DNA of 38,330 nucleotides from Chitinophagaceae bacterium. Its GTDB lineage: Bacteria > Bacteroidota > Bacteroidia > Chitinophagales > Chitinophagaceae. Position numbers and translations under genes: made by a program. The stretch lies in NCBI GenBank assembly GCA_028288585.1, contig JAQBNL010000040.1, forward strand, positions 1 to 38,330. The letters are read 5' to 3'. This document shows, in pieces, positions 3,565-19,119 of this stretch (its first letter is position 1; every line of letters starts with the position of its first letter). The notes under the pieces are model-generated. The model did no database searches. It saw only the letters and a program-made list of their open reading frames with translations, and had not been told where the DNA came from.

Positions 3565-5286
3565 TTAATAATCATACTCCCTCCTGCCCATATTCCATCT
3601 TATACCAATGGAGAGCATTGTTGTATTATTGGTGGTAGACGCTTCCCTCACTTTAAAAGTTCTAAGCAATGCAGTGGCATCAACAAAAAGATTTTCCCTT
3701 AATTCATAAGAAGCAACAAAGGTTGCATTCAAACAACTTGCCCTGTATCCGCTGCCAATTTTAAAACCGAAATCTCTTGGTCTGGTACCATAGTTCTCAA
3801 GAGGATTGGCGCCAAAATTTCTTCCCAGGGAATCAAGCCCCTGCACATAATAAATAAGTCTTCCATACAAATAAATTTTAGGCTTTGGCTGGTATTTAGC
3901 AATCCCTATAAACTCCCTGAAATTAGCTCCCAGCGGGTGCGCCAACGGCTGATTATAATGAGTATAGTTAGCAATCGTGTCGTTGTGCGAATAAGTAAAA
4001 GGGCGTGCTATATTAGTTTCCAGCTGCAGGTCAAGATTATTTATATTGAATGCATCAACATATTTAAAACCAAGCTGTACGGCATATTTATTAGCCCAAT
4101 AACCTGTTTTCTTTTTTATTTGAGACAATATAAATTCATCCAATAAAAACTGCCCGTAAATTTGTGCAGTATGCGCAACATTTGCTTTAAAATCAAGGCC
4201 CGCAACCGCATTATCGGGGCTGCCAACGGTGCCTTCAATATGCCTGTAAAAAATTACCGGGTTTAAATATTGAAAATCAAAATGATTTTTTCTTCCAAAG
4301 ATTACACCCTCAAATAAGCCAATATTCAGCCACTTTGTAACATCCATGCTTAAGTGGTGCATTGCTGAATATTTCCTGTCGAGCAAAGTATCCGGGCCCG
4401 TTTTTTTAAATTGAGGCATCAGCTCCATAAAAATATTCTGGTAATTAAACTTCCATATTCTTGTGTTGATCTTAAAGAACAAATAGCTGTTTCCATGATC
4501 ACTTAAAAACAAACTCCTGTATCCGTTGCCGATAAAATTTTTATCATATCCAAATTGAAAGTCAATAAACTTTGCTGCATTAAAAGTTATATAGCCCCTT
4601 GCATCAAAATAATCGTACCCATTTTTTTTGAAAGTCTTGTAAAAACCAACCCCTGGCACTGCATGAAATTGATTTGTTCTTGCCTGGAAAAAATCGGGAC
4701 CCTTTTCCTGGTTCTCTGTTATCATCGCCGAAAATCCTACTTTGTTCGCTATCATTCCCCTTGCAGATACTCCTCTTGTATTAAGATAAATACCGTTACC
4801 ACCTGAAGATGCGCCGAATTGTAAATTCAGCATTGGGTTTATAGCAAGAAAAAAATCTTTGTTATTTACTTCTAAAAAGTTAGCCTTTGTTTTATAAAAA
4901 TTTTTTAAGAAAGGAGTAGCGCTTTCAAATTCAGGACGATCTTTTTGTACCCATTCTATATTATTCATCAGCAGGCTCCTTAAGTTATATTCATCAACGG
5001 GTGTAAGTATAAGGTCAGAGCGGTCACCATATTTATTAAAACCCATTGCCGAATCAGTAGGTGTCATCCGTGTGCTGTCAAGATATTCAACCTCTCTTAC
5101 GATTGCTTTACGGCTGTAAGGCTTAACTGTAGAAAAATTCAGGTTCCTGTTTTCCTGCAATTTTATTTCCATACGTTCTATAAAATCATAAGCCTTGGAG
5201 CCCAGCGGGATATAGGTTGACTGGCTAAAAGCAAAAACAGGACAAAGAAAAGCAGCCATTCTGATAAAGCATTTCATAATTTGCAT
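3565..5286 (-). CDS. Outer-membrane beta-barrel protein of the Wzi capsule-assembly / RemB-like family
   Basis: This is a predicted outer-membrane barrel of 573 residues. A short signal peptide (MKCFIRMAAFLCPVFAFSQ) starts 3 residues after the chosen ATG at 5286; an ATG at 5277 is equally plausible. The open frame extends to 5463, but that would run over the start of the divergent pyrC, so it is not used. The body has many alternating amphipathic strands. Diagnostic pieces of the Wzi-like domain are FGYDKNFIGNGYRSLFLSDHG, the PVIFYRHIEGTVGSPDN segment, and FLLDEF followed by a KYGVQLGFK-like strand. In Bacteroidota, relatives include RemB-type gliding proteins and capsule assembly proteins. 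The 24-bp gap to pyrC implies overlapping divergent promoters. Confidence 0.75.
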   Translation of the reverse strand: MQIMKCFIRMAAFLCPVFAFSQSTYIPLGSKAYDFIERMEIKLQENRNLNFSTVKPYSRKAIVREVEYLDSTRMTPTDSAMGFNKYGDRSDLILTPVDEYNLRSLLMNNIEWVQKDRPEFESATPFLKNFYKTKANFLEVNNKDFFLAINPMLNLQFGASSGGNGIYLNTRGVSARGMIANKVGFSAMITENQEKGPDFFQARTNQFHAVPGVGFYKTFKKNGYDYFDARGYITFNAAKFIDFQFGYDKNFIGNGYRSLFLSDHGNSYLFFKINTRIWKFNYQNIFMELMPQFKKTGPDTLLDRKYSAMHHLSMDVTKWLNIGLFEGVIFGRKNHFDFQYLNPVIFYRHIEGTVGSPDNAVAGLDFKANVAHTAQIYGQFLLDEFILSQIKKKTGYWANKYAVQLGFKYVDAFNINNLDLQLETNIARPFTYSHNDTIANYTHYNQPLAHPLGANFREFIGIAKYQPKPKIYLYGRLIYYVQGLDSLGRNFGANPLENYGTRPRDFGFKIGSGYRASCLNATFVASYELRENLFVDATALLRTFKVREASTTNNTTMLSIGIRWNMGRREYDY

Positions 5287-5310
5287 GGGTAGTTTATTTA
5301 ATTTCAAGAT

Positions 5311-6651
5311 ATGCAAAAATATCTCTTTAAAAATATATCGGTAGTAAATGAAGGAACAATAATTATTGCAGATGTATTTATTCAAAAAGGAAGAATAGAA
5401 AAGATAGAGAAGAATATAAATGTAAAAGAGAACGTAACAGAAATTAATGGTGAAGGAAAACATTTATTGCCCGGCGCTATTGATGACCAGGTGCATTTCA
5501 GGGAACCGGGTTTAACGCATAAGGCAACTATCTATACTGAAAGCAAAGCAGCAGTGGCAGGCGGTATTACCAGTTTTATGGAAATGCCTAATACGATACC
5601 CAATGCACTCACAGAAAAAATACTGGAAGAGAAGTATGCAATTGCATCAAAAACTTCATTGGCCAATTATTCTTTCTACATGGGTGTCAGCAATAATAAT
5701 GCTGATGAAGTTTTACGAATGAACGCAAGAAAAAATGAAATATGCGGAGTAAAGATATTCATGGGATCCAGCACCGGCAACATGCTGGTTGATAATGAAG
5801 CGACGCTCAACAGGATATTTAGTGAAAGTGAATTACTGATAGCTACACATTGTGAAGATGAAAATATTATCAAAGCAAATTATGAGAAGTTAAAAAGGGA
5901 AAAGGGAGAATTATCAGCATCCGATCATCCGGTAATAAGAAATGAAGATGCCTGTTATCGGTCTTCATCATTTGCAGTTTCGCTTGCAAAAAAATACAAC
6001 AGCCGTTTACATATCCTGCATATCTCAACAGAAAAAGAATTATCACTGTTTGAAAATACCATCCCTTTAAAAGAAAAAAAGATAACTGCAGAAGTTTGTG
6101 TTCATCATTTACATTTTACAGCAGACGATTATGAAAAGCTTGGTTATCTTATCAAATGCAATCCTGCCATTAAATCTTCTAACAATAAAAAGGCATTGTG
6201 GAATGCCTTACTGGATAACCGTTTGGATGTGATAGCCACAGATCATGCGCCACATGTTATAAGCGAAAAAGAGCCTCCTTACGAAAATGTTCATTCAGGT
6301 TTACCACTTGTTCAGCATTCATTGTTATTAATGTTGAAGTATTATAAAGTACAAAAGATCTCTTTAGAAAAAATAGCGGAGAAGATGAGCCATGCCGTTG
6401 CAGATTGTTTCAAAATTAATAATCGTGGCTACATTCGTGAAGGATACTCTGCAGACCTTGTTGTAGTTGATCTGAATGAAGCAACAACAGTAAAAAAAGA
6501 AGATCTTTTATATAAATGCGGATGGAGCCCGTTGGAAGGTGAAACATTTCCTGCAATGATCACTCATACTTTTGTGAATGGCAATTGTGCGTATGGAAAT
6601 AGTGTGTTCAATGAATCTATAAGAGGAGAAAGACTAAAATTCGATCGCTGA
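5311..6651 (+). CDS. pyrC: Dihydroorotase
   Basis: Dihydroorotase closes carbamoyl aspartate to dihydroorotate, step three of pyrimidine synthesis. The 446-residue protein is a class I-type amidohydrolase. It shows LLPGAIDDQVHFREPG with the metal-binding HxR pair, FMEMPNTIPN, GVKIFMGSSTGNM, ATHCEDE, LHILHISTEKE, and IATDHAPH with the metal/catalytic Asp. A C-terminal strand region follows (SADLVVVDL, GWSPLEGETF). It is divergent from the Wzi-like gene, and its stop overlaps the start of the MutS-like gene by one base (TGATG), so the two are probably translationally coupled. The other pyrimidine gene, pyrD, lies about 15 kb away. Confidence 0.95.
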   Translation: MQKYLFKNISVVNEGTIIIADVFIQKGRIEKIEKNINVKENVTEINGEGKHLLPGAIDDQVHFREPGLTHKATIYTESKAAVAGGITSFMEMPNTIPNALTEKILEEKYAIASKTSLANYSFYMGVSNNNADEVLRMNARKNEICGVKIFMGSSTGNMLVDNEATLNRIFSESELLIATHCEDENIIKANYEKLKREKGELSASDHPVIRNEDACYRSSSFAVSLAKKYNSRLHILHISTEKELSLFENTIPLKEKKITAEVCVHHLHFTADDYEKLGYLIKCNPAIKSSNNKKALWNALLDNRLDVIATDHAPHVISEKEPPYENVHSGLPLVQHSLLLMLKYYKVQKISLEKIAEKMSHAVADCFKINNRGYIREGYSADLVVVDLNEATTVKKEDLLYKCGWSPLEGETFPAMITHTFVNGNCAYGNSVFNESIRGERLKFDR

Positions 6652-13970: not shown

Positions 13971-16457
13971 TTAGTTAGAATTAAAACTTAATGGCACATT
14001 TATTTTAATGCTGAAATTTCTTCCCATATTATAAATACCATAGTGACCATTAGGGGAAGGATAATTTGCAGGGTCCTCAAAATACTTTAACCTGTTTAAA
14101 TGTGATTGATACGCAACATCAAATAAATTATTTCCCATCACGGAAAAAATAAGCACAGTGTTTCCCTTCCTGTTGGTAATATCAGCGCCAATTCCGGCAT
14201 TCACTAAACTATAACCCGGCGTAGGTGTTTCTGTTCCAAAAGCAAGATAAGCCCTGTTTTGTGCAGCATAATGATCCAATTGAATTTTTGCAAAACCATT
14301 GGCAATACCTTTTGAAACCCTTTTCATATTAGCCCGCAATTCAGAAAAAGTATGCAGTGGGGGAATGAATGGCAGGTACTTTGAACTATCATTTATCTTG
14401 GTAAGATTGCTTGCGTCTTTATTAGTTCCATACACAACCGATAATGAATTTTCAAAATGCAACCAATCCAGCGGGTGAGGATGAATATCAAGACTCAGTT
14501 CAGCGCCATACAACTGTGCCTTGCCCTGCAAAAACTGGAAGGTTTCATTGCCGGGAACAATAATGGAATCCTGCCCCTGCCCGTTCAATAATTTTGAATT
14601 AAAAATATAGTTGGTGATATTATTATTAAATATTTCAGCATCCAAAGTAAAATGGGGAGTATTATAATTTATACCGATATCCTCCTGCAAATTAAATTCG
14701 GGTTTAAAATTAAGGTTACCCAACTGGTAAGTATTGGTTCCCGGGTGAACCCCGTTGGCAGATATCTCCGAAATATTGGGAGCCCTGAAACCCCTGCCGA
14801 TATTGAATTTACCAGTTACATGATCTGAGAAACGATAAGATAATCCAAAGCTGCCGCTTATACCTGAAAAAGTATGCTGGTACGCAAAAAATGGCTGATC
14901 GGCGCCGGGAGTACTGCCGGGAACAGGCTTATCAAACCCGGTTACGGGATCAGGCGTTGTAAACAATTCTTTATTTGTAAAAGATCTTGTGTCATAACGC
15001 AAGCCTCCTGCAAGTTCCAAATCCTTAATCGTTTTTGTTATAAAGATGAACGGCCCAATATCAAACTGGTGATAAGAAGGTATTATAAATTCAGTTCCTT
15101 TTTCTGCATTATTATTTTGGTACATGCCATTAATTCCTGCAGTAATTCCCCATCCGTTTTTTTGGGCGAAATTATATTTAGCATCATAAGAAACAGTGTT
15201 AAGAATAAGGTATAATCCCGGAACTATTATTTCCGGATGACTGAACTCTCTTCTTATACTCTTTTGATAGGCAAGATTAAGAGCCAGCCTTCCTCCTCCC
15301 ACCCTAAAGCTGTTTGCAGTATACATCCTGTAATGCTGAACATGCTGATGCAAAACAGGAATGTGATAAGATATTAATTCCCTGTCAGTAACAATTGGGC
15401 GAACGGTATCTGCTTCTGTAATTTGTTTTGTAAATTTTCTTGTTGCTGAATCCCTGCTGCCGTCAGGTATTTCCTGCAGGTCATCAAAAATTGAAAATCC
15501 AAAATGCGAATATCCCCATGATTTATTAACGCCGGCCAGGCCACTAATATCAGTTTCTGCAAAACCTGTATTATAAACACGGCCATCAATTTTATTTGTA
15601 TAATTAGTTGCCAGCTTATGAGATATTCTTCCCATCCACACAAATGAATTTGTATGTCCTGCAAGCATTGCAGAGTTTTCAATAAGCCTGTTGTTAGTTT
15701 GATATTCGTTTACAATTTCACTTATTGTTTTTCCTTCTGCCGGCGGATTTGGGGGTAATAAATTTACTACGCCTGCAACAGCATCTGAGCCGTAAATAAG
15801 GCTTGCAGGGCCTTTTACCACTTCAACTTTATCAACCGTATTTTGATCTACTTCAATTCCATGCTCATCTCCCCACTGTTGTCCTTCCTGGCGAACACCG
15901 TCATAAAGAGTAAGAATCCTGTTGAAACCAAGTCCGCGTATAAAAGGTTTTGAAACATTTGGTCCTGTTGTAACAGCGTTAATTCCCGGTACTCTTGCAA
16001 TTGCATCTATAATATTTGTACTTAAATTTTGCTGAAGAAATTGTTTATTAATTGAAATAATAGGAATAGGATTTCTGCGGATTGACATAGCTCTTGATGT
16101 TCCGGTAACAACTACTTCATTCACTTCGGTAATGGAAACATCCATTGCAAAATCAAGCGTAGTATTTTGTGTTAACGTTACAGTTTTTAATAAATTTTTA
16201 TACCCAACATAGCCCCCCTCTACTAAATATGTTCCCTGCGGAAGATTACGTAAAATATAATTCCCGTCTTGATCAGTTGTTGTTCCTGCTTTTAAATCAG
16301 CGATATAAATACTGGCGCTGATTAATACTGTACCGGTTTTTGAATCTGTAATTTTCCCCGAGAGTGTTACACCTCCTCTTGCTGCATTCTGTGAAGAGGA
16401 TCGAAGGGAGGTCAAAATAAATACCACACTTATTAGTAAGCTATATAATGTTCTCAT
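13971..16457 (-). CDS. TonB-dependent outer-membrane receptor with carboxypeptidase-regulatory-like domain (ZnuD-like, probable metal uptake)
   Basis: The 828-residue protein has a signal peptide (about 1-22, ending SLRSSSQ), then a CarboxypepD_reg-like beta-sandwich (GKITDSKTGTVLISASIYI to about residue 112). The TonB box region EVVVTG follows, then the plug (RRNPIPIISI, FIRGLGFNRILTLYDGVRQEGQQWGDEHG, VEVVKGPASLIYGSDAVAGVVN). The rest is a 22-strand-type barrel ending GIYNMGRNFSIKINVPLSF. The QWGDEHG loop and the C-terminal YNMGRNFSIKINV resemble zinc receptors of the ZnuD type; that substrate is inference. It is preceded by a small secreted protein gene with a good promoter, and the two probably form an operon. 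Confidence 0.88.
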   Translation of the reverse strand: MRTLYSLLISVVFILTSLRSSSQNAARGGVTLSGKITDSKTGTVLISASIYIADLKAGTTTDQDGNYILRNLPQGTYLVEGGYVGYKNLLKTVTLTQNTTLDFAMDVSITEVNEVVVTGTSRAMSIRRNPIPIISINKQFLQQNLSTNIIDAIARVPGINAVTTGPNVSKPFIRGLGFNRILTLYDGVRQEGQQWGDEHGIEVDQNTVDKVEVVKGPASLIYGSDAVAGVVNLLPPNPPAEGKTISEIVNEYQTNNRLIENSAMLAGHTNSFVWMGRISHKLATNYTNKIDGRVYNTGFAETDISGLAGVNKSWGYSHFGFSIFDDLQEIPDGSRDSATRKFTKQITEADTVRPIVTDRELISYHIPVLHQHVQHYRMYTANSFRVGGGRLALNLAYQKSIRREFSHPEIIVPGLYLILNTVSYDAKYNFAQKNGWGITAGINGMYQNNNAEKGTEFIIPSYHQFDIGPFIFITKTIKDLELAGGLRYDTRSFTNKELFTTPDPVTGFDKPVPGSTPGADQPFFAYQHTFSGISGSFGLSYRFSDHVTGKFNIGRGFRAPNISEISANGVHPGTNTYQLGNLNFKPEFNLQEDIGINYNTPHFTLDAEIFNNNITNYIFNSKLLNGQGQDSIIVPGNETFQFLQGKAQLYGAELSLDIHPHPLDWLHFENSLSVVYGTNKDASNLTKINDSSKYLPFIPPLHTFSELRANMKRVSKGIANGFAKIQLDHYAAQNRAYLAFGTETPTPGYSLVNAGIGADITNRKGNTVLIFSVMGNNLFDVAYQSHLNRLKYFEDPANYPSPNGHYGIYNMGRNFSIKINVPLSFNSN

Positions 16458-16528: not shown

Positions 16529-16843
16529 TTAAATGCTTACCGGAGGTCCGCGAAGGAAAGAGAAAAATCCTGAAGTGGAAGTAAAAGAAATATTTTTAGA
16601 AACGTAAAAAGAAAACGAAAAGACCAGGGGAAGTTGAAAAACGTATTGGCCGCTAAGAAAAGTAGATTCTGCTACAAGATTATCGGTATCACAATTATAA
16701 CCTGACTTGTTTAACTGGTATGGTTTATCATTATTCTTTTTAGGCCGGCTATCAATATGTTTTGCAAATACGTTATGCAGAAATCTTTTTGGAGTAATGC
16801 TGAATGCAAAAACCATCAGCAGTAAACCGGAGAGAAACCTCAT
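16529..16843 (-). CDS. Small secreted protein upstream of the TonB receptor, unknown function
   Basis: From the ATG at 16843 the protein has 104 residues, with a hydrophobic N-terminus (MRFLSGLLLMVFAFSITP) that looks like a signal peptide. The mature part has FLHNVFAKHIDSR, a single Cys in YNCDTDNLVAES, and ends in SFLRGPPVSI. An in-frame ATG at 16864 would add 7 residues. Small proteins of this size, with a Cys/His segment before LVAES and a C-terminal RGPP, recur upstream of metal-type TonB receptors in Bacteroidota as I recall them. A chaperone or metal-sensing role is possible but not shown. The gap to the receptor gene is 71 bp, and the best promoter lies before this gene. Confidence 0.6.
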   Translation of the reverse strand: MRFLSGLLLMVFAFSITPKRFLHNVFAKHIDSRPKKNNDKPYQLNKSGYNCDTDNLVAESTFLSGQYVFQLPLVFSFSFYVSKNISFTSTSGFFSFLRGPPVSI

Positions 16844-16884
16844 TATGTAAACAGATCTAAACAAGATTTTTTATATCAGTATTG

Positions 16885-16913
16885 CAAATATAAAACAAAA
16901 TATTATGAAACAA
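16885..16913 (-). promoter_or_regulatory. Promoter of the small-protein/TonB-receptor operon (TTG-N18-TATATTTG)
   Basis: Read on the minus strand, TATATTTG (16892-16885) is a perfect -7 element. A TTG at 16913-16911 lies 18 bases upstream of it, the right spacing for the Bacteroidota -33 element. The predicted start of transcription is near 16880, giving a leader of roughly 15-40 bases depending on the ATG used. This is the most complete promoter match in the window. Confidence 0.65.
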
Positions 16914-17001
16914 GGTTGCAAATTTAAATTATTAGCCATAAGAGAATAAAGGGTAAATGAGTGAGACCATTAATAAGAAAAGGGAGGAGTAAGAAGTGGA
17001 T

Positions 17002-18336
17002 TTACCTTGATAATTTTTTTGTTAGCCCGATATTTAAACCGGTACTGGTAATTGGTAAGCTCCCCATACCAACTCCTTTAAGAGGAATTTTTACATAAGG
17101 TTCAATGCGAAGCGTAATATTTTGTTTAAGCTCCCGGTTATATCCAACACTAAAATTTGCAACGGCCAGTATATTAGTTGAAGAGTTATTATAGGTTGCA
17201 GAATGTTGGTAGGGCTGCCCGTTATTGTAACTAATGGCGTAATCATATTTTTCCTTTTTCATAAAATAAGAAGAGAAGCCGGCAGAGGCTGAAAAATTTG
17301 TTTTGCCTGATGTGAGATTATATTTTACAGTAAGGGGAACCTCGATCATATTACATACCCCATCTACATTTTTTATTTTTGTATTTGCATTTGTATAAAC
17401 TCTTTTGGTATCGAAATATTTACCATCGCTGTAATAATATTTCTTATCCCATAACACACCTGATTCCAAACTGATTTTTTTACTTAAACGGTATCCTGCC
17501 AATATCCCCATATTTACACCAATATTTTTTACAGATTGCAATTTAACAGTGCTTATATCCGGGCTAATAATGATACCTGCATACAATCCACGCTTCTGTG
17601 GTTTCCTGATTTTTTTCTGAGCGCTCTTTGTTATTTCCTTATCCTTATTTTTAACTGTAGCAGCCTCAGTTTTTTTGTCGTCATTTAATTTAATTACTGT
17701 TGTTTCAGTTTTATCCTGATTGCTGCCAGTACTTATATTTTTATCATTACTTACGCCAGGTATTATTACGTTTTCTTTTTTATCACTCACTTCAGCTGCT
17801 GTTGTAATAGAAGAAGGATTACCCGGTATAATTAAAGTGCTCGTATTTCCAGTGATTATCGAATTTAATTTTCCCCTGGTCTTGCGCTGAAAAGGGGAAG
17901 AGTTATTTAGTGCTGAATAATTCTTTGAGGGTACAGTAACTGCCTGTGGAATATTTAAGGTGGAATTAATTAATGCTGAAGAATTTTTTGAAGGTACAGT
18001 AACTACCTGTGCAGTGTTTGAGGTGGAATTAATTTTTCCGGGTAATGATGGTTGCACTAAATTTCTATCTGCAATATTTTTTGATGAAGTGCCGGCAGAC
18101 TTATTATTATTATTATTAGAAACATAGTTATTATAAACCCATCCCAAAGGCAATAATAACAGCAGCCACAGCAAGTGCTTATAATTCTTATTTTTTTCAG
18201 ATTGGTTATCCGGTACAGGGTTCCCTGATGATAATTTTTTAACCATAGCATTCCAATCGGCACTATCCGTTTTCAGAGGGTAATCTTCTGCTGCTCTCCT
18301 GAATAATTCATCCATATCGTCGTTTACGGGTTGCAT
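17002..18336 (-). CDS. Predicted dual-membrane-spanning anti-sigma factor with C-terminal outer-membrane beta-barrel
   Basis: The 444-residue protein reads as four parts. (1) A short cytoplasmic head, residues 1-50 (DDMDELFRRAAEDYPLKTDSADW), like the start of anti-sigma proteins next to ECF sigma genes. (2) One transmembrane helix at about 54-72 (HLLWLLLLLPLGWVYNN). (3) A Ser/Thr/Asn/Lys-rich linker at 73-248, likely disordered, with two tandem 21-residue repeats at 107-148. (4) An OMP_b-brl-type barrel at 250-444 (GLYAGIIISPDIS, VNMGILAGYRLSKKISLESGVLW, end ITSTGLNIGLTKKLSR). The start overlaps the sigma gene by 13 bp. This matches the Dma type of anti-sigma factor reported in Bacteroides thetaiotaomicron, in which one chain links the cytoplasm to the outer membrane. 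The specific partner and signal are inference. No signal peptidase site is evident after the helix. Confidence 0.75.
   Translation of the reverse strand: MQPVNDDMDELFRRAAEDYPLKTDSADWNAMVKKLSSGNPVPDNQSEKNKNYKHLLWLLLLLPLGWVYNNYVSNNNNNKSAGTSSKNIADRNLVQPSLPGKINSTSNTAQVVTVPSKNSSALINSTLNIPQAVTVPSKNYSALNNSSPFQRKTRGKLNSIITGNTSTLIIPGNPSSITTAAEVSDKKENVIIPGVSNDKNISTGSNQDKTETTVIKLNDDKKTEAATVKNKDKEITKSAQKKIRKPQKRGLYAGIIISPDISTVKLQSVKNIGVNMGILAGYRLSKKISLESGVLWDKKYYYSDGKYFDTKRVYTNANTKIKNVDGVCNMIEVPLTVKYNLTSGKTNFSASAGFSSYFMKKEKYDYAISYNNGQPYQHSATYNNSSTNILAVANFSVGYNRELKQNITLRIEPYVKIPLKGVGMGSLPITSTGLNIGLTKKLSR
17911..18036 (-). repeat. Tandem 63-bp repeat within the linker of the putative anti-sigma factor
   Basis: Two 63-bp units, 17911-17973 and 17974-18036, differ at scattered positions. 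They encode 21-residue units sharing VTVPSKN-S-AL-NS (linker residues 107-127 and 128-148). The length is a multiple of three, so units can be gained or lost without breaking the frame. They lie in the segment that would cross the periplasm. Confidence 0.8.
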
Positions 18337-18893
18337 ACCTGCACTTGCAGTTCATTTGTTTTAATATAACTTCTTAATAAAGCTTTTGCTTTTGATAAAT
18401 TAGATTTGGATGTTCCCACCGCAATTTTTAGCTGGTTAGCAATTTCCTGGTGCGTAAATCCATCTATAACATACATGTTGAATACCACCCTATAGCCCGG
18501 TGGCAGTTTCTTTATTTCATTAATAAGTTCCTTGTACAATAAGCTCTGGTCAGCAGATTGTGATTTGTCTGTGATCCATATCTGTTCATCGCTCATTCCT
18601 ATCTCTGGTAAAAAACTATCTTTTCTTAACCTGTCAATAGCCGTGTGGATCATTATAGTTTTGAGCCAGCCCATAAATATCATCTCCAGGTTTTGAGATG
18701 CTTCATAATGAAACTGGTACAGCTTACTAAATACTTTTACGAAGCCGTCATTTACAACATCTGTTGCTTTGTCGTACCTGTAAATATATCTGAAAACTAT
18801 TTTTAGGCTATAGCCATAGTATTTCTCATAGAGATGCCTATGATCTCTACTATTATTTTCCATGCATCCTTCAAGTATCTCCTGCAGGCTCAT
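18324..18893 (-). CDS. ECF-family RNA polymerase sigma factor
   Basis: The 189-residue protein has sigma region 2 (LYEKYYGYSLKIVFRYI, ATDVVNDGFVKVFSKLYQF) and the connecting W-L-K-T-I-M-I-HTAIDRLRKD segment. Region 4 is a helix-turn-helix (LPPGYRVVFNMYVIDGFTHQEIANQLKIAVGTSKSNLSKAKALL). It therefore has the layout of a sigma-70 family ECF factor. The last 13 bp overlap the start of the putative anti-sigma gene, a common arrangement for a sigma/anti-sigma pair. Target promoters are unknown; divergent DUF3078 at 19120 is a natural candidate. No -7 TAnnTTTG box lies directly before the ATG, which would fit control by its own product. Confidence 0.9.
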   Translation of the reverse strand: MSLQEILEGCMENNSRDHRHLYEKYYGYSLKIVFRYIYRYDKATDVVNDGFVKVFSKLYQFHYEASQNLEMIFMGWLKTIMIHTAIDRLRKDSFLPEIGMSDEQIWITDKSQSADQSLLYKELINEIKKLPPGYRVVFNMYVIDGFTHQEIANQLKIAVGTSKSNLSKAKALLRSYIKTNELQVQVCNP

Positions 18894-19119
18894 TGCTCTT
18901 TAAACAGTGTTTATTATTATGAATACGGGATATTATTGTTTTGGTTGCCCTGTTAAGATAATAAAAATTCAGGATACCCTGATATTGGAGCAGAAATTTC
19001 CCTTCCCGTATCGAAGCGCTATTCTTAAACGGATTGGAATGAGAATTGATAATACCCAATTTAAATATAATTGTACCCTTCGTAAGGTGCACATTCTTTT
19101 ATCATCTAAATTTTATTAC

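Follow-up and report, generated by a model that had tools for sequence, protein, structure and literature searches.

A conserved Dma-type sigma/anti-sigma factor pair of a Chitinophagaceae bacterium, its likely promoter and candidate target genes

The window (the whole stretch of DNA analysed, 38,330 nucleotides) comes from a draft genome of 3.3 Mb assembled into 98 contigs. Among named records, its nearest relatives are two metagenome-derived genomes filed as Chitinophagales bacterium and Chitinophagaceae bacterium. Both belong to NCBI class Chitinophagia, which supports the earlier suggestion, made in a sequence-only reading, that the locus lies in another class than that of Bacteroides. Positions 17002-18893 hold a gene pair of the Dma type, which is real and well conserved. 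This kind of pair is known already; what is added here is its likely promoter and a set of candidate target genes. The locus carries the following features.

18924-18948, minus strand: predicted ECF promoter GCAACC-N15-CGTA of the sigma-Dma operon, by motif match (-35 element 18943-18948; -10 element 18924-18927)
18324-18893, minus strand: ECF sigma factor, 189 aa, by Pfam Sigma70_r2 and Sigma70_r4_2
18324-18336, minus strand: 13-bp overlap of the sigma and Dma frames, from the open reading frame coordinates
17002-18336, minus strand: Dma-type anti-sigma factor, 444 aa, by open reading frame and AlphaFold2 fold; conserved partner of the sigma gene
18181-18336, minus strand: predicted cytoplasmic head, residues 1-52, with short helices 7-17 and 28-36, by AlphaFold2
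18121-18180, minus strand: predicted inner-membrane helix, residues 53-72, by AlphaFold2 (helix 53-72) and hydropathy
17590-18120, minus strand: predicted unstructured periplasmic linker, residues 73-249, no secondary structure by AlphaFold2
17903-18034, strand not given: 63-bp (21-codon) tandem duplication in the linker, 2.1 copies, 85% matches
17005-17589, minus strand: predicted outer-membrane barrel, eight strands, residues 250-444, by AlphaFold2 and Foldseek

The upstream gene had been read as an ECF sigma factor, and Pfam bears this out with 50 bits for Sigma70_r4_2 and 30.6 bits for Sigma70_r2, both over the cut-offs. The overlap of 13 bp between the sigma and barrel genes was likewise recovered, with both frames where they had been placed, and suggests coupled translation. 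By protein search, 12 of 39 genomes contain homologues, and profile matches at E <= 0.001 are present in 54 of 296 sampled Bacteroidota genomes, the window's own genome being counted in both figures. The scan of a species-genome collection gave 99 confirmed loci, the best 80 of which form the locus set; these loci are related by ancestry, and counts over them are not independent. Their record titles include many Chitinophagaceae or Chitinophagales, the others being Cytophagales, Pedobacter and further Sphingobacteriales, or "Bacteroidetes bacterium".

In 76 of these best 80 of 99 loci the sigma gene stands directly upstream of the Dma gene (70 adjacent by script, five with the Dma start called too early, and L123, where the Dma frame is cut). 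Three others (L064, L078 and L118) start at the edge of a contig, where the sigma gene cannot be judged, and in one, L068 of Ilyomonas limi (4150-5325), the Dma-type gene is complete but no sigma gene was found in its vicinity. The two frames overlap in 66 of the 70 pairs measured by script. Sigma factor and head also diverge together over 75 of the 76 pairs, L099 being left out since its sigma gene is cut by a contig end: r is 0.84, or 0.585 with the barrel removed, and the plain correlation never exceeds 0.08 in 500 permutations of the labels. This is largely what co-inheritance as a unit gives. The order kept in 76 of the best 80 loci means that the pairing is not due to chance, and it rules out both a chance neighbourhood and mis-joined genes. 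The idea of an outer-membrane protein with an odd N-terminus that simply happens to stand beside a sigma gene is scarcely credible, as it can draw only on the weak Pfam score of the barrel, whereas gene order, overlap and co-divergence all speak against it.

The partner of the sigma factor had been described as a chain of head, helix (54-72), linker of about 175 residues and barrel (250-444). AlphaFold2, given an alignment of 78 sequences with the window protein included, agrees within a few residues (53-72, 73-249 and 250-441). Prediction of the full chain was a check named in advance, and it does yield a barrel, with the OmpA/NspA fold according to Foldseek. Block means of pLDDT are 92-98 for residues 251-440; the strands span 250-441, and the count of eight takes the adjacent segments 375-383 and 387-404 as one strand. 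The best solved folds are those of OmpA, with NspA fourth, and 9fzd is matched at E 2.4e-10 with a target-length TM-score of 0.68. The Pfam barrel family OMP_b-brl_2 reaches 21.4 bits, below its cut-off of 27, so the barrel assignment rests on structure prediction.

The head is predicted with moderate confidence (block means 59-76 for residues 1-40 and 49 for 41-50), and its W28 is nearly invariant. Domain searches recognised no known anti-sigma domain in it, and a profile search of solved structures returned 11 weak matches, none of them named as an anti-sigma factor or an outer-membrane barrel and none credible as a relative. The linker has block means of 43-60 (residues 71-240), is rich in S, N, K and T and measures about 175-177 residues in the window protein. 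Positive charge is greater before than after the helix in 65 of 78 members from the best 80 of 99 loci; in the window protein itself this orientation signal is weak (+1). L125 of Pedobacter insulae, whose linker is the shortest, was modelled on 45 aligned rows, the window protein plus 44 of the 77 relatives; its predicted parts follow in the same order, and its second head helix continues into the membrane helix. The class I anti-sigma domain is associated with only 6% of Bacteroidetes ECFs according to PMC7406223, a figure that fits the short, different head of the window protein.

Lengths of the parts were compared over 78 proteins from the best 80 of 99 loci, namely 77 relatives and the window protein; L123 (no complete Dma frame, contig end) and the incomplete L064 and L118 were left out, and starts called too far upstream were trimmed in L110, L112, L120, L124 and L127. 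The head has a median of 52 aa (CV 0.089) and the barrel one of 198 aa (CV 0.02), and the linker extends over 113-339 residues with a median of 180.5. Mean identity to the window protein in the best 80 loci is 34% for the head, 30% for the helix, 37% for the barrel and 11% for the linker. Only 2 of the 78 linkers contain cysteine. The tandem duplication of 21 residues equals the excess of the window linker over that of the sister L048 (175 vs 154). In our reading, the linker serves as a flexible tether with a lower limit on its length: free in sequence, loose in length and never short.

This pattern bears on how a signal might travel. As the sequence-only reading had proposed, an outer-membrane event could pull on the intact chain and free the head by mechanical or conformational transmission. 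The floor of 113 residues is what a periplasm-spanning chain would need, and with a contour length of 0.36 nm per residue it corresponds to about 40 nm. However, the threefold length variation and the in-frame duplication rule out the linker as a precise ruler, and transmission of this kind is rather unlikely. The floor does provide a handle for testing if spanning matters. A (TTA)6 microsatellite at 18101-18118, right behind the membrane helix, encodes an Asn run of the linker and is a possible site of its length variation. In 11 of the 78 members from the best 80 of 99 loci (L050, L051, L054, L055, L056, L058, L061, L066, L068, L072 and L090), a cysteine lies within or just past the membrane helix, six times as W-x-C; the window protein has none there.

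The motif GCAACC-N15/16-CGTA first stood out upstream of 12 of the 76 pairs, and these 12 served to fit the pattern. With a spacer of 14-18 it immediately precedes the sigma gene in 39 of the 76 pairs from the best 80 of 99 loci, the spacer being 15 or 16 in 38 of the 39. One hundred rounds of dinucleotide shuffling gave a mean of 0.08 pairs and a maximum of 1, figures uncorrected for the fitting on 12 pairs or for the relatedness of the loci. Among controls over the 76 pairs, the reversed motif occurred 0 times and the opposite strand gave 1. Six further pairs carry the motif at the operon head, which makes 45 of 76 at gene or operon head; for the other 31 it was found in neither place. The motif is also absent upstream of the sigma gene in four loci of two NigD-bearing genomes, where a looser pattern gave one stray site. 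With AAC in its -35 and CGT in its -10 element, the motif has the look of an ECF promoter. Its place upstream of the sigma genes lends good support to autoregulation, and the pair is probably self-activating. Among the papers listed by literature searches of a library with few subscription papers, one search by the motif itself included, none describes such a promoter at a pair of the Dma type; those listed for the motif and for barrel anti-sigma factors in Chitinophaga gave nothing on point beyond papers already known.

Within the window, the copy at 18924-18948 is the only exact match. If up to two mismatches are allowed, the N15 pattern occurs 27 times (one exact) against 15.75 expected, and none of 100 shuffles reaches 27; no reading is attached to this excess. 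A two-mismatch copy behind the Dma gene, at 16894-16919, was rejected as being at chance level (18 matches in the window vs 16 expected). The matching position in the two sisters carries a cupredoxin promoter.

Candidate targets come from further copies of the motif. At the operon head it precedes a Lipoprotein_15 gene in L053, L059, L060 and L067, a DM13 gene in L079, and in L101 a protein with no Pfam match that appears exported by eye. L048 and L049 have a second copy, placed after the Dma gene and before the gene of a cupredoxin lipoprotein; a cupredoxin of this type has no match in the window's genome. That genome has two exact N15 sites, one at the sigma promoter and the other 64 bp ahead of a YceI-like gene; a control pattern likewise gives two, so that the N15 count alone is not significant. 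The YceI-like gene is cut by a contig end. Both sister genomes keep the site 60-67 bp before complete YceI genes. In all three genomes, the site falls within the 3'-terminal part of the gene before it, and coding constraint may explain why the site is conserved.

When spacers of 14-17 and a trailing T are considered, the window's genome has nine sites vs one for the reversed pattern. Two of the nine are inside genes (the YceI-side site being one), one is the sigma promoter, and a CHRD-domain lipoprotein and an S41 peptidase are each preceded by a spacer-16 site. From the motif copies in this genome and its relatives, a regulon made up of small exported proteins such as YceI, cupredoxin, DM13 and Lipoprotein_15 may fairly be proposed. 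The conserved promoter makes the family readable, and reporter strains are feasible in cultured Chitinophagaceae or Pedobacter; promoter and candidate targets together make the Dma-type family testable outside the gut. The other four of the nine sites, all with spacer 16, are on contig C78 (L165, L166, L167 and L168). Three stand before exopolysaccharide-like genes (one sugar transferase by Pfam; flippase-like and chain-length-like proteins by eye), one has no gene close downstream, and two are divergent within one intergenic region. The spacer-16 sites of this genome, the C78 group included, may belong to another sigma factor.

The Dma family is described as restricted to Bacteroidota in PMC13088901, and with 54 of 296 genomes matching the profile its occurrence outside Bacteroides is unsurprising. 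Dma1/Das1 and Dma2/Das2 of Bacteroides thetaiotaomicron (as given there) likewise combine a sigma gene with an anti-sigma chain reaching from the outer membrane into the cytosol, but they belong to another NCBI class of the phylum than the window pair and are reported to affect vesicle formation; Dma3 is described as an exception to the trait of a neighbouring sigma gene. The proposal from the sequence alone that this layout is paired here with an ECF sigma factor finds support in the predicted order of parts, the overlap of the genes and the gene order in 76 of the best 80 of 99 loci. PMC13088901, PMC9308784 and PMC13114119 name nigD genes as targets of Das1-Dma1 and EcfO-Reo. Unlike the setting of the Dma1 pair with its nigD target, the window genome has no NigD_N match.

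NigD_N is matched in only 2 of the 296 genomes of the phylum sample and, among 14 named controls, only in Bacteroides ihuae. Both NigD-bearing genomes have a sigma gene and a Dma-like gene divergent from the nigD gene, and these nigD-adjacent pairs served as a stand-in for Dma1. The window barrel aligns with four proteins of the two genomes, two of them beside nigD (hhalign 97.2%, E 3.4e-11). One of the four is matched from the head to the early linker (E 1.9e-5), and its nigD-adjacent sigma factor has 33% identity to the window sigma factor (E 7e-32). By these sequence comparisons, the window barrel and sigma factor were found to be homologous to the nigD-adjacent pairs.

In EcfO-Reo of Bacteroides fragilis and Phocaeicola vulgatus, too, a sigma gene precedes the gene of a large anti-sigma factor that has an inner-membrane helix and a C-terminal barrel (PMC9308784, PMC13114119). 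According to the same papers, the sigma gene is itself stress-induced (33-fold by BcpT), both BcpT and Bd-A induce EcfO-Reo, and BamA is inhibited by bacteroidetocin A. In that system, strains make longer O-antigen when the anti-sigma factor is impaired. Its regulon takes in nigD genes, whereas the window motif points to YceI and that of the relatives to cupredoxin, DM13 and Lipoprotein_15.

The window genes probably form an autoregulated pair of the Dma (EcfO-Reo) type, with a chain anchored at both membranes whose head would free the sigma factor upon failure of barrel assembly or of the outer membrane. At rest, the barrel would sit in the outer membrane and the helix in the inner membrane, a single chain held at both ends, and the short cytoplasmic head would hold the sigma factor. 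Should barrel assembly or outer-membrane integrity fail, the head would release it, and the freed sigma factor would read GCAACC-N15-CGTA promoters, those of its own operon and of small exported proteins, which would be YceI-like in this genome and its two sisters and of the cupredoxin, DM13 or Lipoprotein_15 kind in relatives. Gene pair, predicted fold, conservation and motif were computed; we infer head-sigma binding, membrane insertion, trigger, release step and regulon, barrel assembly being proposed as trigger because of what induces EcfO-Reo and inhibits BamA. Tentatively, such a pair could serve outside Bacteroidales as a self-contained alarm for outer-membrane assembly, in which failed insertion would turn on an envelope-protecting or redox programme instead of nigD and vesicles, and GCAACC-N15/16-CGTA would drive the pair along with one or a few small exported proteins, in part of redox type.

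The release step may involve proteolysis. The presence of proline or glycine in the core of a membrane helix is often linked to intramembrane proteolysis, and one or the other is found there in 72 of 78 members (from the best 80 of 99 loci). The barrel might thus act as a BAM client: left uninserted, its periplasmic part would be cut, then the helix, and the sigma factor would be freed with no force along the linker. Induction of EcfO-Reo by the agents named above and the inhibition of BamA accord with this, and a linker nearly free in sequence suits a simple tether. Yet glycine is common in membrane helices anyway, and the profile consensus of the relatives has no conserved linker stretch usable as a cut site. 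Such a course stands somewhat short of an even chance; failed barrel assembly with proteolysis fits at least as well as proteolysis-free signalling. Cleavage after the helix could also be constitutive, leaving the barrel as an ordinary outer-membrane protein and the remainder as an ordinary short anti-sigma factor. A barrel-less protein of head and helix beside a sigma gene of the same genome (L032) would agree with this. Against it, one unbroken frame with a long linker is kept in 78 proteins (complete frames by selection, from the best 80 of 99 loci), and inspection by eye shows no signal-peptidase-like site beyond the window protein's helix; this reading is improbable.

The chain anchored at both membranes may also be compared with FecR-type systems. 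These likewise pass an outer-membrane input to an ECF sigma factor via one inner-membrane helix, but their barrel (a TonB-dependent transducer) and anti-sigma factor are two separate proteins, whereas the window protein unites both in one chain. Further Dma-type proteins follow other sigma genes of this genome (L042, hhalign 99.0%; L035, 95.9%), and L033 (88.0%) is probably Dma-type too; the type thus makes up about 4 of the 19 places with sigma region 2. Two sigma-gene neighbours are FecR-like by eye (L041 and L045). The L032 protein, 217 aa long, follows its sigma gene on contig C30 (2579-3813) and is only a weak match (hhalign probability 17.7%). On contig C54 (L046, 2836-4606), a sigma gene shares 26 bp with the gene of a one-helix protein of 374 aa with Trypsin_2 (87.7 bits), a candidate anti-sigma factor fused to a trypsin-like protease. 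A candidate for an unusual anti-sigma factor is the one-helix protein with CarboxypepD_reg and TonB_C that follows a sigma gene on contig C90 (L038, 2894-4699). Downstream of the pair in the window, a protein of 111 aa that ends in an RGPP motif (16529-16864, minus strand) precedes a TonB-dependent receptor (13971-16457, minus strand). It is found downstream of the pair in both sisters too (73% and 69% identity), and in L049 it precedes what by eye are an outer-membrane-type protein and metal-uptake-like ABC genes.
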